Assembly (NCBI GenBank): GCA_036387335.1 | Contig: DASVTZ010000152.1 | Span: 1-32,547 of the forward strand | Length of the DNA stretch: 32,547 bases | Direction of reading: 5' to 3' | Origin: Longimicrobium sp. | Lineage (GTDB): Bacteria; Gemmatimonadota; Gemmatimonadetes; Longimicrobiales; Longimicrobiaceae | Shown: positions 1 through 28,047 of the stretch, piece by piece | Layout of the letters: each line of letters starts with the position of its first letter | Numbering within the stretch: the stretch's first letter is position 1 | Made by a program: the position numbers and the translations under genes | Notes under the pieces: generated by a model | Seen by the model: only the letters and a program-made list of their open reading frames with translations | What the model was told of the DNA's origin: nothing | Databases searched by the model: none

Positions 1-3000
1 TGCTGTCCTGGCGCGAAGCCCAGCGCACCGCGTAGCGCGCGCCGATCTCGGTGCCCTGGCGCACGGCCCACAGCGCGTCCGTGGCGCCGATCAGCCGCCG
101 CTCCGAAAGGGCCGGCGAGCCCACGCCCCCGGCGAGGAGCGGGTTGACCGTGTTCCGCCACTCCAGCTTCGCGAGCACGTTCAGGTCGTTGTGCTGCGCC
201 GGGCGCATCGCCAGGCCGAGCACGGAGCGGTCGCGGCGGGCGAGCTGCATCCCGTTGCCCACGTTGCGGTTGTCCTGCCACCAGTCGTGCCGCGTGAGGA
301 GCGCAGCGGACGAGCCGATGGGAAGGTCGCCGGCCACGTCGATGCGGTAGCCCTGGGCCTCCGCGCCGCCGTGCAGTTCCGCGCGAGCCGAGAAGCGGAG
401 CGCGCTGTCGGTGGGGAGGTACTCGACCCCGGCGCCCGTCGACCAGCGGTCGCGCTCCGTCTGCGCGAAGGGAAGGGCTCGCGTCGGATCCAGGAGCGAC
501 GCGCGGTTGAGGCCGAAGTGGCGCTCGGCGAGCACGTTGAGCGCCCAGCCGCCGTTCAGGCTCAGCCGCTGGTTCCACCCCAGCACCGCGGAGTGCGAGG
601 CGCGCTCGGCGTCGGCGCGCTCCAGGCCGCCCCACATCTGGCCGCCCAGGATGGCGCCGGTCCGCACGTTCACGGAGGTGAGGCCGTAGCTGCCGGCCGA
701 GTCGCCGTGCGTGGTCACCCAGCGGTGCGTGCCCTCGATGCGCGTGCTGCCGAAGACGCGGTACGATGCGCCGAGGCCCATCTGGTCCGGCCGCGAGGGG
801 AGCGTCGCGTTCCCCAGCAGCGGGCGGCGGTCGGAGAGGACGTGCGCGCCCTCGAGCCACACGTCCGCGCGCGGCGTAAGCGACAGCGTCATCTTGCCCA
901 GCGCGGAGGCGGCGGTGCCGTTGCCGTCGTTGTCGCTCGTCATTCCCGCCTCGGTCACCAGCGGGCGGCCGGCCACCACGTTGCGGCTGCGCAGCATGGT
1001 GCTGGCGCGCTCCATCCCGAAGCCGTCGAAGCGCTGGCGGTCGTGCGTGATGCTGAAGGTGTTGGCCGGCGAAAGGCGGAGCTCGCCGATGGCGCGGATC
1101 TCCTGCACGCCGGCGCTGAGGCGCGGGTCGGTGCCCGGCGCGAAGCCGGCGCCCACCTTGAGCCACTCGGCCCCGATCCGCGCGCGGTCCTTGAACAGCG
1201 ACACGGAAGCTTCGGCGCGGCCCGCGAAGGCCGACGAGTCGGGACGCTGCGAACGGAGCATCTCCCCGCGCAGGGAGAGGGAGCCGCGGCGCATGCGCAC
1301 CCCGGTGCCCAGCAGGTCCTGCCCGCCGAAGCCGGAGGTCGGCTCGCCGCCGTCGCGCACGCCCATCACCGAGAAGGCCAGCGAGTCGCCGGTGGCGCCC
1401 ATGCGCAGGATGCGGCCGGCATCGACTTCCATCCGCACACCGCCCACGAAGCGGGCCTCGCCGCCCGAGCGGCTCTCCAGCATCGCCACCACGAACACCG
1501 GGTTGCCGGCGAGGTCGTTGGTGGGCACCGGGTGCTGCAGGAGCACCTCGCCCGTGGCGTAGTCGATCTGGTAGTCGGACCAGCGGACCAGCTCCTGGCG
1601 CGAGATGACGCGGGCCGCGTTCTCACGGGCGCGCACCTCAACGGCCACCCGGTCGGTGCCCGGGCGCACGGAGGTTCCGAAGCGGTACGGGCCGGAGGTG
1701 CCGTTGCCGCGCACCTGGCGCTGGGCGAGCACCTGGTCGGTCATGCTGCCGAAGGCGCGCCACGTCACCGCGCCGGTCGCCACGCGCCCGGTCACGCCGG
1801 TCAGCGAGCGGCCGTACGTGCCAAGCCGCGGATCGCCGCCGAAGTCGCCGGTCTCCACGTCTCCCATCGCCACCCAGTCGTACCCGCGCTCCACGCGCGC
1901 CGAAACCTTTTGCGTGGAGGAGGAGAGGACGCGGCGCTCGCTGCCGTCGCCGAAGGTGGGGTAGCGCGACTCGTCGTTGGGGTCGTAGCCGCGGGCGAAG
2001 AAGTCGTCCGCCTGGCTGCCGCGGCGCGAGTCGTAGGAGACGCTCACCGTGGTCTCGCGGCCGACCGCGCCGCGCACCGTCACCGCGCCGAACGCGTCGG
2101 GCGCCGCGCCCACGCCGATCTGCCCCACGCCGGTCGCGATCAGCGGGCGGGTGGAGGGAAGGACGCGCAGCGGGATGCGGGCGGCGGCCTTGCCGCTCGC
2201 CAGGCGAAGCTCGCCGGGGCCGACGATGTGGCCGGGGCGCACCGGCACGAAGAGCATCCCTGCGCTGTCGGCGCGCAGCTGCTGGCCGGGGGAGGCGGGC
2301 TCGCGGTCCACGCCCAGCGGCTCGGCGCCGGAGCCCTCGACCGTCACGGCGACGCCGCCGGCCAGCGGCACGCCCCACGTGTCCAGCACCCGCACCCGCA
2401 CCGTGTCGGCGCGCGGGGCGCCGGCGTGCAGCGCGGCGACGGTGCCGTCCACTTCGAAGCGGCCGGCCTCGCCGGAGACGTGCAGGGCGAGGCTGTCCGC
2501 GCGCTGCTGGCCCCACGAGTTCTTCATCTCCACGCGCAGGCGGTGCGGACCGGCGCCCACCTGCACGCCGATGAAGTCCGCCACGCCGTCGGGGCGCAGG
2601 GTGGCCTCGGCGATCGCGGAGTCGCCGTCGAAGAGGCGCACCGTGGCGCCCGGCTCGCCGCGCACGCCCACGAAGACGCGGTTGGTGGCGATCACCGCGC
2701 CGTCCGCCGGGGCGAAGAAGCGCACCGCGGGTCCCGTGGCGAAGCTGCCGGCGGCGTCCGCCTGGCGGGCTTCCTCGGTGCGCGCCGGAGCGACACGCGG
2801 GGCGGCGGCGGGGAGCGAGTCCTTCTTCACCGGCGCGTCGGCGGAGAGCGAGGCCGGCGCGGCGGGGCCGCCGCCGACGGTGCGCTCGGCCGGGGCGTTC
2901 GGGCCCGTGACAGTCACGCTCGCGGCGCCGCCGCGCGGCACCAGGCGGAAGTCCACGCGGGGCGTCGTCCACCCTTCCATCCGCACGCGCACCACGGCAT

Positions 3001-5017
3001 CGGAGGGGCGGGCAAAGCCGAAGCCGGCCGGCACGCCCACCGTGTCCACGCGCAGCGCGTGCGTGCCGATGCGGACGTCGCGGAAGGAGAAGCGGCCCTC
3101 GCGGTCGGTGGTCACCACCTCGCCGTCGGCGCTCCACACGTCCACGCCCGCCACGCCGCGCTCGCCCGCTTCCTGGCGGCCGTTGTCGTTGGCGTCCATC
3201 CACACCTTGCCCACAAGGGTGCGCACCTGCACCGCGAAGCCGCCGCGCATGCGCACCCAGGCGCTGGCCGTGTCGCTGCGCAGCGTGCCGCCCTCGGCCG
3301 TGGCCGTGGCGCGGTTCTGCAGCGCCCGCGCGTCGCCCGGCGAAACCACCGTCGCCGCGTACGAGACGGTGCGCGTGGACAGCGCCGGCAGCTCGCCGAT
3401 CCAGAAGCGCACGGTGTTCCCCTCCACGCGCGCGCTGTCGGCGCCGGTGAGGCGGCCTTCCACGTAGCGCAGCCCCGCGGGAAGGATGTCGACCACCTGG
3501 ACGTTGCGCAGCGACACGCTCGCCTTGTTCTGCACGGCGACCGTGTAGGGGATCGCCTCGCCCATGGCGGCTTCCAGCACGCCCGCCGTCTTGGTGACGA
3601 CCAGCTCGTCGCCGTTGAAGCCGAGCGCCTTGAGCCCGCCCGCCTCGGCCGTTACAGGTGACGCGTTGGCCGCGCGCAGGTTGGCGCGGTTGACGATGGC
3701 CGCGTCCTGGGGACGCGCCACGACGCGCACCGTCAGCACCGCGCTGCCCGTCTCGCCGGGCCGCAGCGAGCCGAGGCTCCAGCGGACCACGCGGCCGGTC
3801 ACTTCGGCGCCGCGGTCGGCGCGGACGAACTCGAGCCCGGCCGGCAGGGTGTCTTCGAGCACCACCCCGCGGGCGGTGACGGCGGAGCTGTTCGTCCAGG
3901 TCAGCCGGAACTCGGCCGTCTGGCCCACGCGAACCGTGTCCGACCCCACGAGTTCCTTGGCCAGCGCGAGCTGCGCGCGGACGAGCTGCGTCTCCACCAC
4001 GGGCGAGCTGGCGCCCATCGGCGGAGTGTCGGGGAGGCGCTCCACGTTCATCGTGGCGGAGTTGCGGACGGGCTCGGAGCCCGCGTCCGCGCCGACCACC
4101 GCGCGGAAGGAGATGCCGCCCGCCGCGCCGGCCGCGATGGCGCCGATCCGGACGCGCACGAGCTGGCGGCCGCCGGCGATGCGCTCCACCGAGCCCGCGT
4201 CGCCGTCGGCCGCGTCGGTCAGGGCCGCGCCGTTCAGCGTCAGGGAGCCGGGGACCGCGGTAAGCACGGAGGCGAGAGTGTCGGTGACCTCGGCCGCGCC
4301 GGAAGCGGCATCGCCGGCGTTGGCGTAGGTAAGGGTGTAGCGGAGGGTGTCGCCCGGCGTCGCGTCGGAGCGGTCCACCGACTTGCCGAGCGAGAGGGCG
4401 GCGAGCGGGCGGCGCACCGTTACGGTGTCGCGCACGGAGTCGCTGACGGTGGGGTCGGCCGTGCTGGTCGCCTTCACGTCGATCGCCGTGGAGCCCATGT
4501 CGGGCGCGTTGTTCGGTACTTCAACCACGAGCAGGAGCGCCGCGGACTCGCGCGCCCCCAGGGGGACGGGACCCGAGACGGGGAGATCCCCCGCCCCGAG
4601 CACCCCATTTCCATCGGTGTCCAGGTACAGGCGGATGGTCCACCCCGACGGCCCGCTGGCCGCCAGGGTGTACCGGTCCGGCCCATTGCCCACGTTCTCC
4701 AGCCGGTGCGCGAAGACACGCCGCTCGCCCGGGACGAGCGCCGCCGACTGGGGCGCGGTGATCCGCACCCCCGCCGTGATCTTCACCACCACCGTCGCCG
4801 TCGCCTCCGCCGTGCCCACGAACCCTTCCTGGGTGCCGAAGGTGGCGGAAACGCGGTTGACCACGAGGACCGTGTCCCCGGCCTGGGCCGTGGCGGCGCT
4901 CGGCGCCCCCACGGTTGCCAGGCCGGCCACCCATGCGGCGGCCAGGGCCCGGCGGACCCAACGGGTCCGGCTCGGGTCGCGGGCGACCATGCGGGTGAGA
5001 GTGCCGGTGAAGGACAT
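1..5017 (-). CDS. Giant DUF11 / SdrD_B-like protein with C-terminal beta-barrel-like region (3' end outside window)
   Basis: At least 1672 residues are visible and the C-terminus lies beyond the left edge. The ATG at 5017 has AGGA 8 nt upstream and is followed by an arginine-rich N-terminus, a hydrophobic stretch and an AxA-type cleavage site (ATAQA) near residue 45, so it is exported. Three DUF11-like repeats follow, starting near residues 200, 340 and 470; each opens with a K-x-V/G-like strand, a 'Y.L.Y.N' core and a 'DTLP.GL.FV' strand. Near residue 602 is a prealbumin-like SdrD_B domain (GKVWMDANDNGRQ, then TTDREGRFSF). After Ig-like segments, from about residue 960 the sequence becomes alternating aromatic/charged beta strands (DYQIDYATGEVLLQ) like large outer-membrane barrels. 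It is the last visible gene of a set with 5055-6308 and 6354-6860 (37-nt gap). The barrel assignment is inference from strand pattern. Function is unknown; a surface-display or envelope role is likely. Confidence 0.85.
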   Translation of the reverse strand, partial: MSFTGTLTRMVARDPSRTRWVRRALAAAWVAGLATVGAPSAATAQAGDTVLVVNRVSATFGTQEGFVGTAEATATVVVKITAGVRITAPQSAALVPGERRVFAHRLENVGNGPDRYTLAASGPSGWTIRLYLDTDGNGVLGAGDLPVSGPVPLGARESAALLLVVEVPNNAPDMGSTAIDVKATSTADPTVSDSVRDTVTVRRPLAALSLGKSVDRSDATPGDTLRYTLTYANAGDAASGAAEVTDTLASVLTAVPGSLTLNGAALTDAADGDAGSVERIAGGRQLVRVRIGAIAAGAAGGISFRAVVGADAGSEPVRNSATMNVERLPDTPPMGASSPVVETQLVRAQLALAKELVGSDTVRVGQTAEFRLTWTNSSAVTARGVVLEDTLPAGLEFVRADRGAEVTGRVVRWSLGSLRPGETGSAVLTVRVVARPQDAAIVNRANLRAANASPVTAEAGGLKALGFNGDELVVTKTAGVLEAAMGEAIPYTVAVQNKASVSLRNVQVVDILPAGLRYVEGRLTGADSARVEGNTVRFWIGELPALSTRTVSYAATVVSPGDARALQNRATATAEGGTLRSDTASAWVRMRGGFAVQVRTLVGKVWMDANDNGRQEAGERGVAGVDVWSADGEVVTTDREGRFSFRDVRIGTHALRVDTVGVPAGFGFARPSDAVVRVRMEGWTTPRVDFRLVPRGGAASVTVTGPNAPAERTVGGGPAAPASLSADAPVKKDSLPAAAPRVAPARTEEARQADAAGSFATGPAVRFFAPADGAVIATNRVFVGVRGEPGATVRLFDGDSAIAEATLRPDGVADFIGVQVGAGPHRLRVEMKNSWGQQRADSLALHVSGEAGRFEVDGTVAALHAGAPRADTVRVRVLDTWGVPLAGGVAVTVEGSGAEPLGVDREPASPGQQLRADSAGMLFVPVRPGHIVGPGELRLASGKAAARIPLRVLPSTRPLIATGVGQIGVGAAPDAFGAVTVRGAVGRETTVSVSYDSRRGSQADDFFARGYDPNDESRYPTFGDGSERRVLSSSTQKVSARVERGYDWVAMGDVETGDFGGDPRLGTYGRSLTGVTGRVATGAVTWRAFGSMTDQVLAQRQVRGNGTSGPYRFGTSVRPGTDRVAVEVRARENAARVISRQELVRWSDYQIDYATGEVLLQHPVPTNDLAGNPVFVVAMLESRSGGEARFVGGVRMEVDAGRILRMGATGDSLAFSVMGVRDGGEPTSGFGGQDLLGTGVRMRRGSLSLRGEMLRSQRPDSSAFAGRAEASVSLFKDRARIGAEWLKVGAGFAPGTDPRLSAGVQEIRAIGELRLSPANTFSITHDRQRFDGFGMERASTMLRSRNVVAGRPLVTEAGMTSDNDGNGTAASALGKMTLSLTPRADVWLEGAHVLSDRRPLLGNATLPSRPDQMGLGASYRVFGSTRIEGTHRWVTTHGDSAGSYGLTSVNVRTGAILGGQMWGGLERADAERASHSAVLGWNQRLSLNGGWALNVLAERHFGLNRASLLDPTRALPFAQTERDRWSTGAGVEYLPTDSALRFSARAELHGGAEAQGYRIDVAGDLPIGSSAALLTRHDWWQDNRNVGNGMQLARRDRSVLGLAMRPAQHNDLNVLAKLEWRNTVNPLLAGGVGSPALSERRLIGATDALWAVRQGTEIGARYAVRWASRQDS

Positions 5018-5054
5018 TCGGATCGGTTCCTGTTTACGTGATCGTCGGTTTCGA

Positions 5055-6308
5055 CTACTTGATCCGCACGCGAATCCAGAAGAACCGCGTCGCGCCCGGC
5101 GCCAGCGTACCGGTGAGCGCCGCGCTCACGGTGCCGCTGCTCTCGCTGATCGTCCACCCCGCCGCATCGGCCGACGTGGAGACGTACGTCACCTGGCTGG
5201 GCAGCGCGTCGGTGATGCCGAAGCCCGTGCCCGTGAGGGTCGCCGCGGCGCCGCCGGTGTTCGTGACGGTCACCTTGTACTGGATGTACTGCCCCGGAAG
5301 TACGCGGTCGGTGGACGCGGGCCCGCCGATCACCGTGGTCTGGTCATCCATGTACGCTTCCTTGGTCATGCTGATCGCGGCGCGGACCACGCGGACAATC
5401 CGGTTGCCCGGATCGCTCTTGGTGTTGTCGTTGCCCGAGGTCGCCGTCAGCACCAGGCTCTCCGTGGCGCCGGCGACGGCGCTGTTGGAGACGGTGTAGA
5501 CCACGTCCACCGTGGTGGAACCGCCCGCCGCGAGCGAAACGGAACCGCCGGTCCCGGCCACGCCGTTCACCGAGACGATGCTCACGATGCTGCCGGCCGA
5601 GGCCGAGAGCGAGAACGTGTCCGAGCGGTTGCCGGTGTTCTGGACCGTGAACGTCTCCGTGTACGTCGTCGGCCCCGTGCCGCTGGGAAGCCGGTCCACC
5701 GTGCCGCCGTCCGGCGTTACGACGACCGACGCGGCGACTCCCGGAATCACGTTGGTGGTGGAGCTGTCGGTGGCGCCCGTCGCGGCCGGCGTGCGGCGCG
5801 AAGTCGCGGTCAGCGACACGGGGATCGTCTGGCCACCCTGGCCCGGCGCCACCGTGTAGACCACCGTCACCACGATGCTGCTCCCCGCCGAGATCGGCGT
5901 GCTGGCCAGCGCCACGTTCAGCGCCGCGAGAGTCGGGTAGGTGGTGCTGCCGATCTTGTAGCCGGTGATCGTCACGCCGGTGGCCGCCGTGGTGGAGGCC
6001 GTCACGCTGTCGATACCGTTACCAGTGTTGACGATGGTGAACCCGATCTCGTTGCCCGTGCTGGGCGACGAGGGAGTCACCGACGCCGGCGACTGCACGT
6101 CCGGCCCGGCCTTGAAGCCGACCAGGACGCTGACGCTGGCCGTGGCCGGCGAGTACGTGTTGCCGTTCGCGTCGGTCCAGGTCGCGCTCGCCGTGTTGGT
6201 GATCGTCGTCCCTTCCGGGGTCGGCGTCACCTGGGCGTGAGCGGGCCTGGCCGCGAACGGGGCGAGCAGCAGCCCCGCAAGGGCTACCCGCCGCAGAGTC
6301 TTGTTCAT
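5055..6308 (-). CDS. Secreted DUF11 repeat protein, 417 aa
   Basis: The protein begins with a classical signal peptide: MNKTLRR, a leucine/alanine core, and cleavage after AHA near residue 25. The mature part opens with a 'TNTASATWTDANGN' segment typical of DUF11-type surface proteins. It is then a chain of immunoglobulin-like beta domains rich in Thr, Ser, Val and Gly with almost no cysteine. The last ~105 residues are a full DUF11 domain (ISMTKEAYMDD, Y.VTVTNTG, ALPSQVTYVS), ending in a terminal beta strand and the tail WIRVRIK. AGGAG touches the ATG, which is unusually close, and an AAGG lies 9 nt upstream. The gene is 45 nt downstream of 6354-6860 and 37 nt upstream of the giant DUF11 gene, so the three are probably co-transcribed. 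The partner or ligand is not evident; a periplasmic or surface structural protein is the best inference. Confidence 0.88.
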   Translation of the reverse strand: MNKTLRRVALAGLLLAPFAARPAHAQVTPTPEGTTITNTASATWTDANGNTYSPATASVSVLVGFKAGPDVQSPASVTPSSPSTGNEIGFTIVNTGNGIDSVTASTTAATGVTITGYKIGSTTYPTLAALNVALASTPISAGSSIVVTVVYTVAPGQGGQTIPVSLTATSRRTPAATGATDSSTTNVIPGVAASVVVTPDGGTVDRLPSGTGPTTYTETFTVQNTGNRSDTFSLSASAGSIVSIVSVNGVAGTGGSVSLAAGGSTTVDVVYTVSNSAVAGATESLVLTATSGNDNTKSDPGNRIVRVVRAAISMTKEAYMDDQTTVIGGPASTDRVLPGQYIQYKVTVTNTGGAAATLTGTGFGITDALPSQVTYVSTSADAAGWTISESSGTVSAALTGTLAPGATRFFWIRVRIK

Positions 6309-6353
6309 CTCCTGTGACCTTGGACTGGGGAGTGGGGATGGGATGGGATGGGA

Positions 6354-6860
6354 TTACCGCCGCTCGGGAGCGGAGCCCCCGAAGCGGGTATCGAACTCCG
6401 CGACGACCGTGGCCCCGGGAGCCACGAAACCGCCGACGGTCCAGCGCACGTGCGTGTACTTCTCCGGCGCGGCGGCGCGCTGCACCTGCCGGCCGTCCAC
6501 GACTACCGTCTCCATCGGCTGGACGGAGAAGGTCTTCCCCCCGTCGATGGAGTACTCCGCCCGCGCGTCCGTGCGGGCCGTCCGCGCCGAGCCGGCCACG
6601 AAGGCCATCCCCGGCGCGATGGGGTTCGCGAGCACCGGACGAACCGGCGTACGCTGCGGGTTGGTGAAGGCGATGCGGTAACGCACCACGTCGCCCGGCC
6701 GCACGCGGTCGTCGCCGCGCGGCGTGCCGCGGGCGGCCAGCTCGATCGCCGTGCGGTTCTGCGCCGTCACGCGGAGCGGGCCGGGCGCGGCGGGCTGCTG
6801 CGCCGCTGCGGGGGCTGCGGCAAGGGCAAGCAGTACCAGGAGGCGTGCGATCGACTTCAT
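6354..6860 (-). CDS. Small secreted single-domain DUF11-like protein, 168 aa
   Basis: The signal peptide (MKSIARLLVLLALAAAPAAAQ) is cut after about residue 20. The mature chain holds one DUF11-like fold: 'RPGDVVRYRIAFTNPQ', then 'LANPIAPGMAFVAGSA', then 'YSIDGGKTFS' and a closing 'VAPGATVVAEFDTRF'. The start ATG has GAGG at good spacing. It is the first gene of the three-gene minus-strand set running to position 1, and the only short, single-domain member. It could be a minor subunit or cap of whatever the two larger DUF11 proteins build, but that is inference. No catalytic motif is seen. Confidence 0.85.
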   Translation of the reverse strand: MKSIARLLVLLALAAAPAAAQQPAAPGPLRVTAQNRTAIELAARGTPRGDDRVRPGDVVRYRIAFTNPQRTPVRPVLANPIAPGMAFVAGSARTARTDARAEYSIDGGKTFSVQPMETVVVDGRQVQRAAAPEKYTHVRWTVGGFVAPGATVVAEFDTRFGGSAPERR

Positions 6861-7073
6861 GGGAACCTCGCTTCAGGGATGAAATCGGTCCGGAGAGACC
6901 GGTGAGTGTGCTCTTTTGGTGTTTTCGCGGGGCCCCATGAAGCGTGTCGTTCATGGTCCGGCCCGGCGTGCGAAATGGGAGCTTCGCACGTGTACTGCTA
7001 ATACAAGCAGCGGGCCGTGGCGCCCGCCGCCGTAAGTCATTGCTGGTCAGTCACTTAGGGGAGAACGACGGAG

Positions 7074-7088
7074 GTTCCGGCTAGGAAC
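7074..7088. promoter_or_regulatory. GTTCC-N5-GGAAC palindrome, possible operator
   Basis: A perfect 5-bp dyad (GTTCC, 5-nt spacer, GGAAC) lies about 215 bp upstream of the ATG at 6860 and directly beside the large hairpin at 7089-7131, which itself contains GGGAAC and GTTCCC. The same motif with a 6-nt spacer occurs twice at 11084-11123, upstream of the second DUF11 operon. Shared placement suggests a protein-binding site, but a repeat-derived origin is equally possible. Confidence 0.35.
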
Positions 7089-7131
7089 GTGTGCCCAAAC
7101 GGGAACGGGGGACGTTCCCATTTGGGCACAC
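7089..7131 (-). terminator. 19-bp inverted repeat after the barrel-protein gene
   Basis: Arms 7089-7107 and 7113-7131 pair over 19 bp with one mismatch, which becomes a G-U pair in the minus-strand transcript; the loop is 5 nt. It starts 13 nt past the stop codon at 7145, where an intrinsic terminator would sit, but no U-tract follows. It could be a U-less terminator, an mRNA 3'-end stabiliser or a DNA-level binding site. Confidence 0.5.
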
Positions 7132-7144
7132 CCGATTGGAGGGG

Positions 7145-8554
7145 CTACCCGCGGACGGCGCCTACCTTGACTTCGAGCTGGTACGGCTGGAGCTCGCAGC
7201 CGGAGCCGGTGGGGAGGTAGATGACCTCCGTCCGCCGCACGTTGGGCTCGGCGAAGACGCCCACCCCGCGGAACTCGCCGACCCTGACGACGTCGCCGGC
7301 GCGCAGCAGGCGCGGCAGGCCGAACTTGACGAAACGCCGCCCGCCGAACGTCACCGGCTCGTCCGTGACGAACCAGGGCGCGGAGGCCGCGGACTCGCTC
7401 TGCGGAAGCGCCGCGGTGAACGGCTGCCCCGCGACGGTGGTGTCGCCCGAGACCGGGTCGCGCTGCGCGGCCACGTCCGCCAGCGTGCCGTTACTGATCA
7501 CGCACACCTGGATCTGCTCCAGCTGCGGCGTCACGGGCTCGGGAGCGGGCGGCACGGGCGCGGGCGGCTGCGGCGCGGGGAGCGGAGCCGGTGGGGGGAT
7601 GCGCCTGGCGGCCGGCGTGGCGCGACGGCCGAGGCCGACCTTGAGGCCGATGACGGCGCGCGGGGTGAACGTCAGGCGGTCCTTTCCCGCGGCGCCGTCG
7701 GCCACGTGGGCGGGCGAGTCGTACGCGTGCACCGCGATCTCGCCGAACGCTTCGACGTCATCGGTAACGCGGGCCAGACTGATCCCCGCCCCCGCCACCG
7801 CCATCCCCGTCGTCGAGTAATCCGGGTCGGTCGAGACGCAGACACCCGCCGGCGTCCACGACTCGTGGGGGATGCACGCGCCTTCATCGCCGGGCGCCAT
7901 GAAGTCGCCGATGTCGGCCGTGTAGCCGCCGGCACCCACGTAGAGGTAGACCGTCTGCAGGAGCGTGTTGGGCGTGGAGAGGATGAACGGACGCAGCACC
8001 AGGTCCACGTCGTACAGGTAGCTGTTGACGACGCGCGTGCTCTGGTCGAGGGCGCCCTGGTTGGGGAGGTTCTCCGGCAGATACGTCCCCTGGACCCTCA
8101 CCCCGAAGCGCGGGTCCAGCCAGAGTTGGGCGAATGCGCCAAAGGTCGGCGCGTACCCCGGGTCCCAGCCCTCCTCGCCTTCCACGCCCGGAGTGGTGAA
8201 CCAGTTGGTGGTGTACGACCCGCCGGTGTGGATCCCCACGTCCACCAGCGCCGTGTGCCCCGCCCCGCCCTCCTCCTCCGGCGCCCTGTACCCGGCGCCG
8301 CTCTCCTCCCGCGCCACCGTGTCTCCCGCCTCGCTCGACTCCTGCGCCGCCGCCTTCCCCGCCCCGCTCTCCTCCTGCGCCGCCGCGTTCCCCACCGCGC
8401 CCGCCGCGAGCGCGAAGGCGAGCGCCACCCGCAGCCACCTGGCGCGCGGACGCACGGAGACGCAGAGCGCGCGCGGGGAGCTCTCGCTCGCGCCGCTGCA
8501 CGTCTGCGTCACGTCCGTGGCCCTGGGCACGCGCACGGGTGGGGAGGGGTTCAT
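7145..8554 (-). CDS. Outer-membrane beta-barrel-like protein with Pro-rich linker and C-terminal domain, 469 aa
   Basis: The ATG at 8554 overlaps the stop of the upstream DUF11 gene (ATGA), suggesting coupled translation. However, 33 residues precede the hydrophobic signal peptide (ALAFALAAGAVGNAAAQ), so a GTG at 8455 (436 aa) is a plausible alternative start. After cleavage come four 11-residue Glu-rich repeats (residues 57-100). Residues about 103-300 look like a small OmpA/porin-type barrel: alternating strands, many Tyr/Phe/Gly, segments such as DVGIHTGGSYTTNWF and FAQLWLDPRFGVRVQGTYL. A proline/alanine linker (about 312-335) leads to a compact C-terminal domain with WFVTDEPVTFGGRRFVKFG and two cysteines. 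No enzyme motif is visible. The barrel may anchor or export its DUF11 partner; that is inference from gene pairing. Confidence 0.8.
   Translation of the reverse strand: MNPSPPVRVPRATDVTQTCSGASESSPRALCVSVRPRARWLRVALAFALAAGAVGNAAAQEESGAGKAAAQESSEAGDTVAREESGAGYRAPEEEGGAGHTALVDVGIHTGGSYTTNWFTTPGVEGEEGWDPGYAPTFGAFAQLWLDPRFGVRVQGTYLPENLPNQGALDQSTRVVNSYLYDVDLVLRPFILSTPNTLLQTVYLYVGAGGYTADIGDFMAPGDEGACIPHESWTPAGVCVSTDPDYSTTGMAVAGAGISLARVTDDVEAFGEIAVHAYDSPAHVADGAAGKDRLTFTPRAVIGLKVGLGRRATPAARRIPPPAPLPAPQPPAPVPPAPEPVTPQLEQIQVCVISNGTLADVAAQRDPVSGDTTVAGQPFTAALPQSESAASAPWFVTDEPVTFGGRRFVKFGLPRLLRAGDVVRVGEFRGVGVFAEPNVRRTEVIYLPTGSGCELQPYQLEVKVGAVRG
8255..8386 (-). repeat. Four tandem 11-residue repeats in the barrel protein
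   Basis: Directly after the signal peptide the protein reads AAAQEESGAGK, AAAQESSEAGD, TVAREESGAGY, RAPEEEGGAGH, giving four degenerate 11-mers (132 nt). They share an E-E-S/G-G-A-G core. A flexible, acidic spacer between the cleavage site and the barrel is the likely role. Confidence 0.7.
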
Positions 8555-10914
8555 TTTATTCGCGCTATGAAGGCGAACTGCCCGTCCGAGAGGGATGCGC
8601 CCGCGGGGAGATCGCCAGACAGGGTCCACACGATCCGCCGCACGCAGCTGTCGTAGCCGCCGGCCACGATGCACGCAGCGTTCCCGCCCGGCGTGATCGC
8701 CGCCCCGGTGCTGTCCCGGTAGGCGACGGCGGCGGTCAGCCCGGACGGCAGCGACTGCGAAACGCTCCCCACTTTGAACATCACCTGCGTGGGCACCGAG
8801 TCGGTGACGGTCACGGAGCGCGCCGCGTACTCGCCCACGTTGGCAATCTTGAGCGTGTAGGTAAGGTCCGTTCCCGATGCGAGGGTGCCGGTGGGCGACA
8901 CCGTCTTGCTGAGCGTCAGCACCGGCCGCACGCGCCGCACCTCGGCGTAGCCGTCGTCGCGCAGCAGCGTGTCGCTCACGGCGCGCGCCCTCAGGAACTG
9001 CGTGTTCACCGCCGTGTCGCCCGCGAGCACGCGGTACCAAACCGTGTAGACCGTCGTCGTGCGTCCGGCCAGCGGCACCGTGGCGGTAGCGTACGAGGCC
9101 GGCGTCGCGATCCCCGGGCCCGTCACGCTGTCCACCGCGATGAACACCGATGCGGCGCCGCTCGCGGTGGTGCGCAGCGACAGGGAGTACGTCCCCGACG
9201 CCGGCGACAGGTTCTGCACGTTGAACGCCTGCCCGTACGCGCCGCCCGGCAGCCGCGGCGTCGGCGAGACGAGCCCGTCCGGCGTCACGGAGATCGAGGA
9301 CTTCATCGTGGTCGTCACCCGCGAGGCCGACGAAGTGCCGTTGTTGTTCGTCGCGTCGTTGTCGTAGCTGCTGGATGACGCGGCTCCCACGTTCACCACC
9401 GACCCCAGCGCTGCCGGCGCCACCACCACCACCGTGTCCGTCCGCGCCACCCCCACGTCGAGCGACGCGAGCGACGGCCAGGTGAGCACCCGTCCCACCA
9501 GCGTGGGGGTGCGCGTGGCGCGCACGAAGGTCACGCCTACCGGCAGGGTGTCGCTCAGTACGACGCCGTATCCTCGCTCCGGCCCCAGGTTCTGGACGGT
9601 GAGGACGTACTTGATGGTGTCGCTCACCACCGCTGAGTCGGGCCCCGTCTTGGTGACCGAGAGGTTCGCGGTGCCCACCGTCACGGTGGCCGAAGCGGTC
9701 TGGCCGAGCTGCGTGTTCCCCGTGATCGCCTTGACGCTGTTCGTGTACTGGCCCGCCGCCGCGATGGTGGCGGTGTACTTGAGCGTCAGCGATCCCTGCG
9801 CCGGGAGGGCGTACGGCGTCGGCTGGGTACCCCGCCACACGATCGTCCCCGTGCTTCCGGTGGCGGGAAGCGAGCCCGTGGTCACCTGGCTCCCCGCCGC
9901 GATCCCGCCGTAGACCACCCCCGTGGGAAGCACGTCGACGATGGAGTCGACTTCGGACTTGTAGGGAGATGGATTGGAGATGACGACGGTGTAGGTGACG
10001 GTGCTGCCGGACGGGACCGCGCTCGGCGTGACGGACTTCGTGACGACGAACGGGTTCGTGGCGCTCATAAACTCGATACCCACCCCCCCCGCGAAGGTCT
10101 GGTAGTTCGACGAGTACTTGAGCTGCGTGCCGCTAGTCTGGTTAGAGTACGGCCTCGCAAGCGTGGTGACCCCCGTGCACAGGTACTTGAAGGAGTACTG
10201 CATCCTAATGGTGTACCCGTTCCCCGTGGCGTTCGACGTGGCCGTGAAGAACTGCAGGTTTTGGACTCCCATCGGGACAGCGGGGACGTTGGAGGCCGTC
10301 ACCGTGGTGCCAACCAGCTGGAAGCACCCGCCGCTGAAGGTGTTGTTGCCCGCCGGCTGCAGGTTGTACGTGTCGCCCACGCTGGCGCCGCCGAAGTCGT
10401 ACGACACGTCCAGCGTGATCGTCTGCCCCACCACGGCGCCAGCGCCGAGCGTCGAGCTGTTGACGATGCCGCCAGCCTGGGCGCTGATCATGCTACTAGT
10501 GGTAACCGTGTCCGAGCCCGCGGTCGACCCAGTGTCGTCGCTCACCGACACCTCAAGCACGTTCTTGATCCCGAAAGTGCACGGATAGCTGACAAACCAC
10601 CACAGCGTCCGCGAGGTGCCCGGGGCGAGCGTACCGATCCACTGCCCGGCCGCCTGCCCGCCCGCCAGAGCGATTCCTCCCGAGAAGCCCGAAATTGTGC
10701 TGCGCAGGCTCGTCTGCGTCGCCCCGGAGGTGTTGTTGACCCGGAACGACACGTACGCGGCCCGGGGTCCCGTGCAGGGGCTGTTGCTGTCCAACGTGAG
10801 TTGCTTGCTGCTCACCATGGTCACCGACACGCCTGGCGCGGCCCACGCGCCGGGCGCGATGGCCAGCAGCGCGAACGCCACGGTGAACAGGATGGTTCGG
10901 AGTCTCGCAGACAT
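8551..10914 (-). CDS. Secreted DUF11 multidomain protein, 787 aa
   Basis: The frame stays open upstream to 11163, but the ATG at 10914 is chosen because it begins a textbook signal peptide (MSARLRTILFTVAFALLAIA, cleavage after AWA at residue 25). The first ~300 mature residues are an atypical beta-rich region with several cysteines (NSPCTGP, SYPCTFG, SGGCFQL, YLCTG). Then come DUF11-like domains beginning VTKSVTPSAVPSG, LSVTKTGPDSAVV and LTLSKTVSPTG, each with a Y-x-V/L-x-I/V-x-N core and a 'DTLP/DVLPTGV' strand. The C-terminus ends in FIARIK, resembling the VRIK tail of the 417-aa protein at 5055-6308. It is the first gene of a two-gene operon with 7145-8554 (ATGA overlap). No strong Shine-Dalgarno is seen. 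A structural surface or extracellular role is inferred. Confidence 0.87.
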   Translation of the reverse strand: MSARLRTILFTVAFALLAIAPGAWAAPGVSVTMVSSKQLTLDSNSPCTGPRAAYVSFRVNNTSGATQTSLRSTISGFSGGIALAGGQAAGQWIGTLAPGTSRTLWWFVSYPCTFGIKNVLEVSVSDDTGSTAGSDTVTTSSMISAQAGGIVNSSTLGAGAVVGQTITLDVSYDFGGASVGDTYNLQPAGNNTFSGGCFQLVGTTVTASNVPAVPMGVQNLQFFTATSNATGNGYTIRMQYSFKYLCTGVTTLARPYSNQTSGTQLKYSSNYQTFAGGVGIEFMSATNPFVVTKSVTPSAVPSGSTVTYTVVISNPSPYKSEVDSIVDVLPTGVVYGGIAAGSQVTTGSLPATGSTGTIVWRGTQPTPYALPAQGSLTLKYTATIAAAGQYTNSVKAITGNTQLGQTASATVTVGTANLSVTKTGPDSAVVSDTIKYVLTVQNLGPERGYGVVLSDTLPVGVTFVRATRTPTLVGRVLTWPSLASLDVGVARTDTVVVVAPAALGSVVNVGAASSSSYDNDATNNNGTSSASRVTTTMKSSISVTPDGLVSPTPRLPGGAYGQAFNVQNLSPASGTYSLSLRTTASGAASVFIAVDSVTGPGIATPASYATATVPLAGRTTTVYTVWYRVLAGDTAVNTQFLRARAVSDTLLRDDGYAEVRRVRPVLTLSKTVSPTGTLASGTDLTYTLKIANVGEYAARSVTVTDSVPTQVMFKVGSVSQSLPSGLTAAVAYRDSTGAAITPGGNAACIVAGGYDSCVRRIVWTLSGDLPAGASLSDGQFAFIARIK

Positions 10915-22549: not shown

Positions 22550-23074
22550 TCAGCCGCGCGGCGGGAACACGCCCTGGAGCGCGATGTTGAAGTTGAGGGT
22601 GAGGTACGGCATCATGTTGTTGTGCGGTAAGCTTCCCCCGGCGGGCGCCAGCGCCTGCGCGGCCATGCTGACCAGCGCGGGCGATCCCCCCACGTACGCG
22701 GGCGCGCCCGTAGAGCCCGCGAGCGAGATGGTGGGGCCGGGCTGCAAGTTGTCACCCGCGAAGCTGTTGGCCCGCAGCGTGTGGGAGTGCGCCGGAATCT
22801 CCGTGACATCGAGCGTCACGGTTTCGGAGCCGCCGACCTCGCCCAGGTCGTGCAGCGAAAGGCCGGGGCCCTGGCCCGGGTGCATGGGCGCGCTTCCCTC
22901 CAGGTCGGGGAGCGCGAAGGTGCTCTTGCCGTCGCCACCATAAGTGGTGCCGAGCAGGGAGAAGAGCGCGGTGTTCTGCGAGATGGGCAGGATCTGCCCA
23001 TTGCAGAACGCCCATCCCTTCGGAGCGAAGGTGAAGGGGAAGATGCGGATCTCCGCGACAAACGGATCAGCCAT
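22550..23074 (-). CDS. Phage tail collar domain protein (microcystin-dependent type), 174 aa
   Basis: The ATG at 23074 is preceded by GAGGAG, which overlaps the upstream gene's stop region. The protein begins MADPFVAEIRIFPFTFAPKG and continues WAFCNGQILPIS, NTALFSLLGTTYGGDG, TFALPDLEG, the conserved tail-collar (Collar/MdpB) sequence. Then come GSETVTLDVTEIPAHSHT and a variable Gly/Ala-rich middle. It closes with PYLTLNFNIALQGVFPPRG. No signal peptide. It is the third of three tandem paralogues and has diverged most in the collar motif (PMHPGQGPG in place of PIHxGNG). In phages these form receptor-binding fibre tips; in non-phage bacterial loci the role is unknown. Confidence 0.92.
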   Translation of the reverse strand: MADPFVAEIRIFPFTFAPKGWAFCNGQILPISQNTALFSLLGTTYGGDGKSTFALPDLEGSAPMHPGQGPGLSLHDLGEVGGSETVTLDVTEIPAHSHTLRANSFAGDNLQPGPTISLAGSTGAPAYVGGSPALVSMAAQALAPAGGSLPHNNMMPYLTLNFNIALQGVFPPRG

Positions 23075-23085
23075 GGGTGCGCTCC

Positions 23086-23592
23086 TCAGGTGGGGCTCGG
23101 GAAGATGCCGAACAGCGAGATGATGAAGTTCAGGCACAGGTACGGCTGGAAGTTCGTGTGCGGCTGGCTTCCCCCGATCGGGGGAATGGAGCCCGCGGCC
23201 ATGTTGACCGTCGGGGTGTCTTCCACGTACGGCTGCACCGTCCCCGGATTGGTGGCCAGCAGGTTTCCACCCGGGTTCGGGTTGTTCCCCGTCGCCGTGG
23301 TCGCCACCAGCGGGTGCGTGTGGACGGGAATCTGCTGCGTCGTGAGCGTGATCGACTCCGCTCCGCCCGCCTCGGCCAGCAAGAACCCGTTCCCCTGGTG
23401 GATCGGGATGCGCCCGCGAAGGTCGGGAAGGGCGAAGGTGCTCTCGCCGTCGCCGCCGTAGGTGGTGCCGATCAGCTGGAAGAGCGACTCGTTCTCGCTG
23501 ATCGGGATGAGCTGACCCTCACAGAACAACCACCCCGCGGGGGCGAAGTTTCCGGCAAAGATCCGGATCTCGCCGATATAAGGTTGCGCCAT
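23086..23592 (-). CDS. Phage tail collar domain protein, 168 aa
   Basis: The middle of three tandem paralogues: MAQPYIGEIRIFAGNFAPAG, WLFCEGQLIPISENESLFQL, TYGGDGESTFALPDLRGRIP and IHQGNGFLL cover the N-terminal collar region. SITLTTQQIPVHTHPL is the conserved His-containing strand. The last ~50 residues include the variable PNPGGNLLATNPGTVQPYVED loop region (split here from its flanks) and end FIISLFGIFPSPT. It is 11 nt from the downstream and 16 nt from the upstream paralogue, so the three form one operon. The variable loop between the His motif and the C-terminal strand is where the paralogues differ most. Confidence 0.92.
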   Translation of the reverse strand: MAQPYIGEIRIFAGNFAPAGWLFCEGQLIPISENESLFQLIGTTYGGDGESTFALPDLRGRIPIHQGNGFLLAEAGGAESITLTTQQIPVHTHPLVATTATGNNPNPGGNLLATNPGTVQPYVEDTPTVNMAAGSIPPIGGSQPHTNFQPYLCLNFIISLFGIFPSPT

Positions 23593-23608
23593 TTCGCTCT
23601 CTCGCGGG

Positions 23609-24106
23609 TCAGTTGGGAGACGGGAAGATGCCCTGCAGCGCGATGCAGAACGTCAGGGTGAGGAACGGCTGCATGTTGAGGTGCGCCTGGCTCCCGCCCG
23701 TATTGGTGACGGACTGCGGAGTCATGGTGGTGAGCGGCGCCACGTTGTTGTACCCGCCGCTGAACGCCGCCAGGTAAGCATTGTTGGCCGAGTTGGTGGA
23801 GCCGTTCGTGTTCGTGGCCTGCAGGAAGTGCGTGTGCGTGGGCATCTCGGCCATACTCACCGTGTGGTTCTGCTCGCCCCCCTTCTGGCCGAGCGTGAAA
23901 CCATTTCCCACGTGGATGGGAGTGTTGCCGCGCAGATCGGGGAGCGCGAAGGTAGTCTGCCCGTTGCCGCCGTACGTAGTGCCCAGGAGGGAGAAGAGCG
24001 CCTGGTTCTGGTTGATGGGAAGCTGCTGCCCGTTGCACATCGCCCATCCCTTGGGGGCGAAGTTGAAGCTCATCAACCGAATTTCCGAAAGGAACGGTTC
24101 TGCCAT
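23609..24106 (-). CDS. Phage tail collar domain protein, 165 aa
   Basis: First gene of the collar operon, with GGAGA 4 nt before the ATG. It has the full family signature: MAEPFLSEIRLMSFNFAPKG, WAMCNGQQLPINQNQALFSL, TYGGNGQTTFALPDLRGNTP, IHVGNGFTLGQKGGE. Next are HTVSMAEMPTHTHFLQA and a distinct Asn/Ser/Thr-rich variable segment. It ends LTFCIALQGIFPSPN. It shares all strands with its two neighbours but not the variable segment, consistent with duplication followed by diversification of an exposed tip. No phage structural gene is visible around it. Confidence 0.93.
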   Translation of the reverse strand: MAEPFLSEIRLMSFNFAPKGWAMCNGQQLPINQNQALFSLLGTTYGGNGQTTFALPDLRGNTPIHVGNGFTLGQKGGEQNHTVSMAEMPTHTHFLQATNTNGSTNSANNAYLAAFSGGYNNVAPLTTMTPQSVTNTGGSQAHLNMQPFLTLTFCIALQGIFPSPN

Positions 24107-24224: not shown

Positions 24225-27200
24225 TCAGGGGGTGGCGCAGGCGGAGCCGCCCACGAACCCGCCGCCCCCGGAGGCGGAGGTGCTGCTTGCCGTGCCCGCC
24301 GCCCCGCCGTTGTTCGCCTGCACGAACGCGGCTGCCGCGGCGTTGTCGAACGCCCCGCCCGCGTAGCCGGGGAGCCGCACGGTGGTGGCGAAGCGCTGGC
24401 GAAGGCTGAAGTCGGCGCCGCCCGCCACGCCGGAGCCCGTGAGGGAGTTTCCGGCGATGTGCGCGCACACGGCGTACGCGTCGGGCGTCCCGCTTCCGGC
24501 GTTGGAGTTGGTGCCGGCGTTCACCTGGATCCCGTTCCCCGGCAGGGCGCCGAATGTGCCGGGGTTGGCGATGGTGTTGCCCGTCACCGTGGCGTTCAGC
24601 GCTGCGTCGTGCTCCGTGAAGCCGGTGCCGGACTTGGCCGCGCCGCCCGCCTGCAGCAGGATGCCGAAGTTGTTGTACTGGTAGAGATGGTTGCCGGTGA
24701 CCGCGACCGTGTGGCTGCCGCGGCCGATGGCCAGGATGTTGATGGCGGAGCCGGAGCGCGAGCCGGAGTTGGCGATCGCCGCCGCGCCCACCACGTTCCC
24801 AGAGATCGTGCCGCTGAAGGAGCCCCCCGCGATTCCCTTGTTCACCACCAGCGCGGAGCCGTCCGCGTCGCGGAAGGTGTTGCCGGTCACCTGGTAGCTA
24901 AGGGTGGGCACCGCGCCCGCCCCGCCCGACGCGGCCAGCAGCACGCTCCCACCGCCCGAGAGCACCGCCGGGTGGTTGTTGCCGAGCGTGTTACCGGTGA
25001 ACACCAGGTCGGCCGTGGGGCTCCCGAGCATGTTGAGCATGAAGAGCTGATCGCGCGACGCCGTGAAGCGGGTGTTCTGCACCGTCACGCGCATCACCGC
25101 CGATCCCTGGGGCTGCACCAGTACGCTCTGCAGGCCGGTGGGCCCGTTCGCCCCCAGGGTATCGCCGCTCAGGGTGAGCCGGTCCAGCGTCCCGCCGGTG
25201 TTCACCACGCGCAGGTTGTTGAGCCGCCCGCCGCTGATGCTGGACCCGGTGATGAGGGCGGAGCCGGTCAGCTCCTCGAACGAGATGCTCCCCTCGAAGT
25301 AGGGCGCCGCCTCGTTCGTGCCGTTGCTCCCTTCCACCCGGGTCCCGGCCAGTTCGAAGCCGTTCACGGTCGTTCCACGGATGGCGTAGTTGGAGTGGTT
25401 TGCGAGGGTCATGTACGAGAGTTCCACGCGGCCCGTGTGGTCCAGCCGCACCCCGGCCCCGCCCGTCGTGCCGTCCGCGCCCATCGTCCCCTCCAGGGTG
25501 CCGCCCGAGCCCGGAGCGCCCGTACCGGTCACCTGCAGCCCGCCGGCGCCGGTGTGGTCGAGCACGATCCCATTGCTGCCCCCGGTGGCCGTGATGGAGC
25601 GGAAGGTGAGGCCGGACGCGCCGATGGTGGTGCCCGCGATCCGCAGCGCGACCCCTCCCGCGCTACCGATCGCATTGTTGGAGCCGGTCACGGTCACCGT
25701 TCCGCCGCCCGTGGCGAGGAAGGCCGTGCCCGTGGTGGTGGTGAGCGAGAGCCCGCCGCCCGCTAAGCGTACGTTCGCACCGGGGTTGTCCGCAAGAGCT
25801 ACGGCATCGCCGGCCCCCGTGTTGAGAACTTTGCTCCCGCCCGTGAAAGCGATTGTCCCCCCCGTGTTCTCGGCCACGCGGATGCCGGCGGCGGACGCTA
25901 GGAGGTCGCCGGCCAGCGTCACCGTTCCGCCGGTGCGGTGCATCACCGACACCACGTGCCCGGCCGCGTTCACCACCTCCGCGCCGATCGTTACGTCACC
26001 CGCGCCGCCGTCCACCTCCACCCCCGCGCCTGCCGCGCCGGCGATGCGCCCCGCCGCCGCGCTCACCACCCCCTGCACGCCCGTGAGCCGCACGCCCGCA
26101 CCGGCGCTCGCGTCGGAGGAGAGGACGGAGAACGAAGCGCCCGCGTTGCCACCCTGCAGGTCCAGCGCCGGGCCTCCCGCGGCCTGAACCGACACGGCCG
26201 CCGCCGTGAAAGTGCCGAACGCGCTGCCGCGGATCGCGGCCCCCGCGGTGGAGGCGACGTCCACGCCCTGCACGGTGTTTCCGGTCGCCAGCAACACCGT
26301 GGTGCCGGCGGTGGAGCGGGTGATCTGCGGCGCGGTCCCTGCGGCCAGCAGCACCACCGTGGACCCGTTCAGCTCGGTGGTCACGTTCGCGGGCACCCCC
26401 TGTCCGGTGAGCATCTGCGAAGGCTTCAGCACCAGCCCCTCGTCGTACCCCGCGCTCCCCCCGTTCCCCGCCAGCACGAAGATGGTCTCACCCGCGGCGC
26501 TCGCGGCTTCGGCCGCCTTCAGCGTGGCGAACGGCGAGGCGTCGCGCCCGTCGCCCGGTGCCGCGGCGGTGTTGGCTACGTACCACACCCGGGAGCCCAC
26601 TGTGAGCTGCACCTGTGCGCTGGCCGTCGCCTGCCCGTCCGTGGCCTGGTAGGTGAACGAGTCGGCGCCGGTGAAGCCGGGCGCGCTCAGGTAGGTGAAG
26701 CCGCCGTCCGCGGCCAGCGTCACCGTGCCGCCGGCCGTCGTCGCGATGGTGCCGGGCACCGCGGAGAGCTGCGTTCCTTCGGCGTCCGTGTCGTTGCCCA
26801 GCACGCCGGGCGCGGCCACCGGGACGGTCACGTTGCCGATGGCGGCGAAGCTGTCCGCCACCGCCACCGGAGGCGTGTTCGGGTTCAGCACGCGCACCGT
26901 GGCCGTGGCGGACGCGCCGCCGCTGCGCGCGGTGATGGTGGCGCTCCCCGGCGCGACACCCAGCGCCACTCCCGTCGCTCCGATGCGCGCCACCAGGGTG
27001 TCCGAAGAGGACCACACGACGGTGGCCGCCACCGGGTCGCCGTGCAGGTCCGTGGCGGTGGCGGTGAACTGCTGGGTTCCGCCCGTCGGCACGGTGGCGG
27101 AGTCGGGCTCCACGTCCAAGGCGCCCACGATCCCCTTCTCCACCCGGAACTTCACCGGCAGCGTGCGGCCGTCCAACAGCGGGATGTACTGCTGCGTGTC

Positions 27201-27668: not shown

Positions 27669-28047
27669 GGCTGGTTCTCGCGGGTGGCGGGGTGGCGCGC
27701 GCGGCTCGCCGCCTGGATGGCGGAAACCGGTACGCGCCGCTCTGTGGATCCAGGGGGAGGGATCGGAAAGCGGAGGCAGAGCGTTTTCGCTCGCCCCGAC
27801 GCAGCCGTCAGGGCACGAAACGCACCCCCGCCGGAGCCCCGCCCACACAGCAGATAACCCGATGCAGCCCAACGGCTTACCATTCACCCGCAACTCCGTT
27901 CTCCCGGCCGCCGCAGGCATTTGTGTGGCTGCGATGCCACGGCATGGGTACTGAAAGTCCCACCGCGAGCACTCGCATACTTGTGGTGGCTAAAAAGGAG
28001 TGGCGCAATTTCACTCTATGCGGCCCCCCACCGCGCCGAGTTGCCAG
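27669..28047. other. Intergenic region upstream of the 1147-aa lipoprotein gene
   Basis: About 380 nt lie between the lipoprotein start and the terminator of the preceding gene. It should contain the minus-strand promoter and a 5' leader. I found no convincing promoter hexamers, tRNA or structured RNA, and no coding frame with a credible start. The part near 27960-28020 is the most AT-rich and is the likeliest promoter site. Confidence 0.4.

Follow-up and report, generated by a model that had tools for sequence, protein, structure and literature searches.

Organization of the locus

The window analysed here (32,547 bp) is one entire contig (C152) from the soil bacterium Longimicrobium sp., whose Gemmatimonadota genome comprises 5.8 Mb in 265 contigs. 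As the initial annotation had reported, one part of it encodes on the minus strand a 787-aa and a 469-aa protein, followed by a small, a medium-sized and a giant protein, here called A, B, C, D and E (Table 1). Matches to DUF11 (PF01345) above the Pfam gathering score of 24.6 bits were obtained for A, D and E; C matched only a DUF11-type repeat model (6.6e-4), and too weakly to reach that model's cut-off. Genome-wide, all DUF11 matches are confined to this one contig. The giant protein is read from its N-terminus as donor strand, DUF11 stalk, SdrD_B domain, two Ig-like domains and barrel-like region. The end of another contig of the genome, C245, overlaps window positions 1-664 with scattered differences and extends E by 111 residues to a stop codon, which gives a total of ~1783 aa. 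Between positions 4900 and 11400, no promoter-like sites were found and terminator-like sites showed no excess over shuffled sequence.

Table 1. Features of the A–E locus (window coordinates)
Feature	Position	Strand	Description
Gene A	8551-10914	minus	787 aa, secreted; three DUF11 stretches (3.9e-27); tip candidate
A acceptor domain (open DUF11)	8554..8937	minus	residues ~660-787; Lys670; terminal FAFIARIK; HMM end position 84/121
Gene B	7145-8554	minus	469 aa, small outer-membrane-type protein; judged outside the system
Inverted repeat	7089-7131	none	19 nt, loop 5 nt; B/C intergenic; possible transcription end
Gene C	6354-6860	minus	168 aa, secreted; one DUF11-like domain, lacking both donor strand and Lys; candidate chaperone or cap
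Gene D	5055-6308	minus	417 aa, secreted; one DUF11 (2e-8); N-terminal donor and C-terminal open acceptor
D donor strand	6177..6221	minus	residues 30-44, TPEGTTITNTASATW; Asn38
D acceptor domain (open DUF11)	5058..5375	minus	residues ~312-417; Lys316, Asp367; model end 92/121
Gene E	2-5017	minus	1672 aa in window, open at contig edge; three DUF11, SdrD_B
E donor strand	4838..4882	minus	residues 46-60, AGDTVLVVNRVSATF; Asn54
E complete DUF11 domains (three)	3257..4414	minus	residues 202-587
E SdrD_B domain	3011..3208	minus	residues 604-669
E barrel-like region	2..2155	minus	from ~residue 955, cut by contig edge

Several neighbouring genes were also recorded. A Pfam-checked receiver-domain response regulator gene lies directly after E on C245 (L060:15911-16318), and response regulator genes occupy the same place in two other loci of the Longimicrobium lineage (L080:7556-7963 and L081:3189-3584). 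At the other end, an NtrC-type sigma-54 regulator is encoded directly upstream of A in L085, and proteins resembling it precede A in L088, L090, L093, L094 and L096. Elsewhere in the window, three tandem genes (22550-24073) encode short similar proteins (FAPKGWAxCNGQ...LPDL) that resemble phage tail-collar proteins. A long Thr/Ser-rich, repeat-like protein is encoded on the minus strand at 28131-32546, open at the right contig edge, and adjoins a gene for another long secreted-looking protein (24225-27920).

Conservation of the gene set

The E barrel region was searched against 150 genomes of the phylum and matched 20 of them, 11 closely. The close E loci share one gene order, namely a first gene with the C-terminal domain of A, then C, D and E, and the C-terminal 250 aa of A are kept in gene 1 of related loci. 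Scanning 84,980 species genomes yielded 25 loci, which are partly on the same contigs as the hits in the 150 genomes; L068 (same genus) and L076 add two. Thirteen of the 25 reach far enough upstream of E, the other 12 beginning inside E or too near to it. The order C-D-E was present in 12 of these 13, the exception (L100) being an E fragment with neither C nor D within its 10 kb of upstream sequence. In 10 of the 11 loci with room for it, A lay upstream of C in the same orientation; in L089 it is on the opposite strand. Strong C matches (E < 1e-30) occurred in nine of the 150 genomes, all of them among the 11 with a close E, and the remaining 139 gave none; for the two close-E genomes that gave no C, the contig ends at E. 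The closest named relative found is a Longimicrobium MAG (L080), with 94% identity over the last 913 residues of E in the window. Gene order and similarity thus indicate that A-C-D-E is one conserved set in Gemmatimonadota and Latescibacterota. The proposal that DUF11 chains and a barrel-like protein act together was accordingly upheld in the form of this conserved gene set.

Sequence comparison also indicates that the set has relatives in Pseudomonadota, Deinococcota and Cyanobacteriota. The open domain ends and donor-type starts described below were seen in a Latescibacterota genome (L103), in Pacificitalea (L116, with C-D-E), in Deinococcus ficus (L118), in Thermus brockianus (L119) and in Synechococcus NIES-970 (L117); in Acinetobacter (L114) and D. 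radiodurans (L115) the ends were partly recovered, and some genes look broken up. A plasmid search gave no match with D alone as the query and 53 records with E, eight of which were examined. In the cyanobacterium, Deinococcus and Thermus, stalk and barrel are separate genes with a four-base overlap (L117:6797-12954, L118:7594-13526 and L119:7663-15680), and these pairs are the true split form of E.

Gene B and the A–C junction

The initial annotation had seen two adjacent modules at this locus: a split one, with A and B as its DUF11 and barrel halves, and beside it a fused one, represented by E. Two modules were not borne out, since A directly precedes C in other loci and the genes make up a single set in which A is gene 1. 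B was absent between A and C in all 11 other loci where A precedes C on the same strand (L068 included). Nor could B be retained as a barrel paired with DUF11 chains: it has no Pfam match at 0.1, and its relatives sit away from DUF11 genes. They occur on seven other contigs of the same genome (C110, C31, C7, C245, C253, C206 and C146) and in related genomes, with housekeeping-type neighbours in the loci examined. OMP_b-brl (PF13505) was matched weakly in two of six members of the family (best E-value 0.0074) and was not matched in B of the window. The B family is expanded. Its members carry a linker rich in Pro, and their conserved C-terminal domain contains two Cys and has no Pfam match.

Because B is missing from the A–C junction elsewhere and its paralogues lie away from DUF11 genes, we judge it to be an unrelated lineage-specific insertion and a bystander to the system. 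The ATG of B does overlap the TGA of A (ATGA), but the translational coupling read from it is uncertain, because a signal-peptide-like stretch lies ~40 residues inside B. This adjacency and overlap are what speaks for B as the barrel partner of A in a two-module arrangement; set against the synteny of the other loci and the paralogues that lie elsewhere without DUF11, we regard that arrangement as very improbable. With the 19-bp inverted repeat lying between B and C, transcription of A-B separately from C-D-E is possible in this lineage. In the closest relative (L080), the contig starts within this repeat, immediately before C, and so does not bear on B.

D-type proteins end in an incomplete DUF11 domain

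DUF11 is described in PMC12617251 as the CLIPPER domain of fibrillar adhesins, with a crystal structure (9ifr) and a triad formed by Lys715, Asp748 and Asn806. The last DUF11 domain of D covers positions 9-83 of the 114 positions of the Pfam profile, and there the protein stops. In order to compare domain ends between species, we used a local DUF11 model of 121 positions, for which 124 complete domains from the loci were aligned. Proteins of the D type, from several phyla, ended at model position 92-94 in all 21 rows, a count that leaves out one row cut inside a fusion. The internal DUF11 domains of E reach positions 109-121 (window and L068). On this alignment D-type ends lack the final strand, where the isopeptide Asn resides. 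The last domain of A is poorly mapped by the HMM (end at 59-109), and the assignment of an open end to A rests partly on a shared terminal motif.

The triad appears by sequence to be divided between proteins, with Lys and Asp in the A and D acceptors and Asn in the D and E donors. The acceptor Lys was present in 13 of 14 D proteins and in nine of 11 Gemmatimonadota A proteins, being lost in those of L086 and L094. The Asp was found in 21 of 22 D and D2 rows, D2 being an extra chain of some loci and the fusion-cut row being included here, as well as in 16 of 16 A rows. C has neither the Lys nor a donor strand, and its Asp is replaced by Asn in five of 13 cases. TTHA1873 (7wrk) was considered as a relative of C and rejected, the match being one of fold only, with no sequence match.

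Putative donor strands and their fit to the open ends

Directly after the signal peptide, D and E begin with a segment resembling the last strand of DUF11 (Table 1). The start motif of this segment was detected in 13/13 D, 0/12 A and 0/13 C proteins, and in 2/283 other proteins of these loci. Of 43 donors, 38 have Asn in the place of the isopeptide residue (D 20/20, E 18/21, D2 0/2); it is lost from the E donors of L093, L103 and L076 and from D2 of L090 and L095. Because some species lost either the Asn or the Lys, covalent locking is, as read from these sequences, not universal across species. The spacing in model positions (Lys-34-Asp and Lys-91-Asn) agrees with Lys715, Asp748 and Asn806 of the solved CLIPPER domain (PMC12617251).

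Acceptors were joined in silico to donors and scored against DUF11. Joins to D donors gained a mean of +7.8 bits (n=24), with at least 7.7 bits for 13/13 D-type acceptors, and joins to E donors a mean of +5.0 bits (n=24). Control joins to other N-termini averaged 0.2 bits (n=840, of which 19 reached 5 bits), and joins to shuffled donors -2.0 bits (n=1440, of which 20 reached 5 bits). The joined score with a D donor falls for two of 11 A acceptors (L092 and L089). E donors fit worse than D donors, and D donors fit D acceptors best.

Natural fusions join the same ends. D is fused to D2 in L095 and to E in L076, and in both the last acceptor strand is followed by a short linker and then the donor strand; in L090 and L095 the first DUF11 domain of E itself is split at the same boundary. 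The L095 fusion piece was modelled with AF2 (mean pLDDT 89.5): its D part ends at residue 109, and linker and donor follow. The composite domain (model range 4-150) superposes on CLIPPER 9ifr with 120 of 123 residues aligned (2.1 A, Z-score 13.8). It is the only composite domain modelled, a natural fusion in cis, and it carries Gln in place of Lys and Ser in place of Asn. Because this fusion has neither Lys nor Asn, the model supports the composite fold and not the bond.

The N-terminal strand could alternatively serve only the chain that carries it, by capping the first Ig-like domain there, the short DUF11 ends then being a truncated variant and no joint existing between chains. The weak E donors of some species would suit such capping. 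It does not account for the precise shared terminus of D-type proteins (model position 92-94 in all 21 rows), for natural fusions and an AF2 model that place the strand on the preceding domain, or for the partnerless E genes described below, which are without the donor strand; we consider it improbable. Complementary ends, their conservation, natural fusions and a composite fold are what sequence comparison and modelling show. The initial annotation had missed the split DUF11 domain, which would account for the joint action of the chains.

The putative tip and the one-piece giants

In four loci an E-type gene with its N-terminus in view stands without C or D beside it, and all four of these genes are without an N-terminal donor. 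Two of them (L106 and L109) are from Gemmatimonadota; the other two (L120 and L121) are from Alphaproteobacteria and have DUF11 and barrel as adjacent genes. The N-terminal part of the L109 giant is similar to A of Thermus (45% over 347 aa, 5e-67) and to A of L068 (32% over 229 aa, 7e-17). In L089 and L090, A contains lectin-like Laminin_G_3 and DUF2341 domains, and in Deinococcus ficus a beta-helix. Because the L109 N-terminus resembles A and A carries lectin-like or beta-helix domains, A looks like the tip of the chain. The split set, compared in this way, resembles a one-piece giant cut into locking parts.

That one-piece giants with the same tip and base exist would also be in keeping with a fixed chain of one A, one D and one E, a giant adhesin supplied in parts, with donor-strand joints that are non-covalent, no polymer, and a triad inherited from CLIPPER ancestors. 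The species in which Asn or Lys is missing point in the same direction. The invariance of the Asn in D donors (20/20) and the near-invariance of the Lys in D acceptors (13/14) argue against this, and so does the preference of D donors for D acceptors, which favours D-D joints and a bond. We therefore hold a fixed, non-covalent chain to be a possible but rather unlikely alternative.

The putative base: a barrel-like region in E

The two Ig-like domains and the barrel region of E from L080 (1024 aa, 26 sequences) were modelled with AF2 at a mean pLDDT of 73 and a pTM of 0.59. The model has 42 strands of at least seven residues between model residues 199 and 1009 and supports a barrel-like C-terminal part in E. 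Of the barrel that had been predicted in the giant protein, the strand-rich C-terminal part was thus recovered in this relative, whose E is full-length, but not a closed single barrel. Against the PDB, the model retrieved generic large barrels or porins. Its best Foldseek match is SlpA, the S-layer protein of Deinococcus radiodurans (8ae1, 8agd and 7zgx), although with a TM-score of only ~0.26 and no sequence match. Porins head its structure-neighbour (VIA) list (Z 14.2, 245 residues at 7.2 A), in which FimD (9fw9) comes at rank 35 (12.4 A over 355 residues). Searches of E gave no SprA-like or usher-like NCBIfam match and no match to the autotransporter barrel PF03797, the barrel-like region being ~830 aa long; the E profile had no sequence match among PDB chains.

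In the Latescibacterota E (L103), an OmpA domain (residues 1148-1247) precedes the barrel region, and OmpA-family genes lie directly downstream of E in all six loci tested (L105, L106, L107, L108, L110 and L114). Such a domain and such genes would suit a tie to peptidoglycan, and because of them the stalk could lie partly or wholly in the periplasm. In that case the system would be a periplasmic or envelope-spanning scaffold, running from the outer membrane to peptidoglycan, instead of a surface fibre. The lectin-like or beta-helix domains on A tips do not sit well with a scaffold, nor does the role of DUF11 as a typical stalk domain of fibrillar adhesins, as described in PMC12617251; we consider the scaffold unlikely. 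The surface filament with its own outer-membrane anchor that was suggested at the outset is consistent with the conserved set, although its location at the surface is inferred.

Proposed assembly

Taken with the modelling, the sequence data make it probable that one long adhesin chain is built from A, D and E, each secreted on its own and joined to the next through split DUF11 (CLIPPER) domains. Beyond this, we infer inter-chain assembly, covalency, polymerisation of D, the role of C, the export route and the surface location, as follows. A, C, D and E would be exported by Sec. C, which is acceptor-like and has no Lys, would hold or shield a donor strand reversibly as a chaperone or cap. E would insert into the outer membrane, its C-terminal barrel-like region anchoring the chain. 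The donor of D would enter the open domain of A and the donor of E the open domain of D, giving a head-to-tail order A <- D <- E, with D as linker or shaft; because D has donor and acceptor on the same protein, it may repeat. Lys, Asp and Asn would then meet as in an ordinary CLIPPER domain, and an intersubunit Lys-Asn isopeptide would probably form spontaneously. Such assembly would need neither usher nor sortase.

A bolder form of this proposal is that the loci represent a widespread unrecognised fibre class of five phyla, in which a split-CLIPPER polymer with a covalent Lys-Asn lock is combined with a huge outer-membrane barrel, a peptidoglycan-binding partner and C as a reversible cap or chaperone, and which would do without usher and sortase. 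We advance it tentatively, as a serious possibility that falls a little short of being the expected outcome.

Relation to known fibre systems

SpyTag and SpyCatcher form a split isopeptide pair, of which the proposed joints would be a natural counterpart. In chaperone-usher pili, the tip subunit has no donor strand. An incomplete Ig-like domain is completed in these pili by the N-terminal donor strand of the next subunit (PMC9715654), and D, with its incomplete end and its N-terminal donor-like strand, would be analogous to the subunits of type 1 and P pili so described. The present system differs from them by a barrel-bearing base subunit, a predicted covalent lock and the DUF11 fold. No Pfam match to an usher or a PapD-type chaperone was found within A-E, and no LPXTG-type sorting signal, a feature of sortase-assembled pili, at the C-termini of A, C, D and E. 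On the features tested, the system would fall outside both of these classes of pili, although it would work like donor-strand pili.

With the CLIPPER adhesins described in PMC12617251, the chains share the domain, the Lys-Asp-Asn spacing and the role as a stalk, and the composite domain superposes on their structure. In those adhesins the domain is complete in one chain and the bond is intramolecular, whereas here the last strand would be supplied by the neighbouring protein. Neither "split" nor "SpyTag" appears in the main text of PMC12617251. A parallel in assembly mode is offered by the archaeal threads (Saci_0406), portrayed in PMC9715654 as a head-to-tail donor-strand filament with proposed intermolecular isopeptides and no known sortase. 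Isopeptides between subunits, proposed there, are predicted here, where they would likewise need no sortase. According to the same source, the alpha-amine of the N-terminal Asp24 of Saci_0406 joins Asn57 two subunits along. The donors of the window, unlike that N-terminal Asp, start with Gln, Ala or Val-type residues and have an internal Asn, the Lys being carried by the acceptors. The present system would thus differ in drawing on the Lys-Asp-Asn triad of a split CLIPPER domain, in being bacterial and in having a barrel-like outer-membrane base. TasA, as presented in PMC9674648, forms a donor-strand fibre of the Gram-positive matrix outside the chaperone-usher pathway; unlike the present system, it is not DUF11 and has no barrel base.

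Searches of open-licence PubMed Central papers gave none that links DUF11 with donor strands. PMC12282271 deals mainly with DUF1194 and mentions DUF11 a single time, and PMC3711429 was discarded as a false word match, its text concerning DUF111.

The proposal gives a group of DUF11 proteins of Gram-negative and related bacteria a concrete, testable function as modular fibre subunits. It comes with a rule that can be searched for in any genome, namely a C-terminus left open after strand F together with an Asn-bearing strand right after a signal peptide. If true, it would explain why DUF11 genes occur in sets of a small, a medium and a giant protein with a barrel, would add a class of donor-strand fibres covalently locked without sortase, and would provide natural split isopeptide pairs useful for protein coupling.
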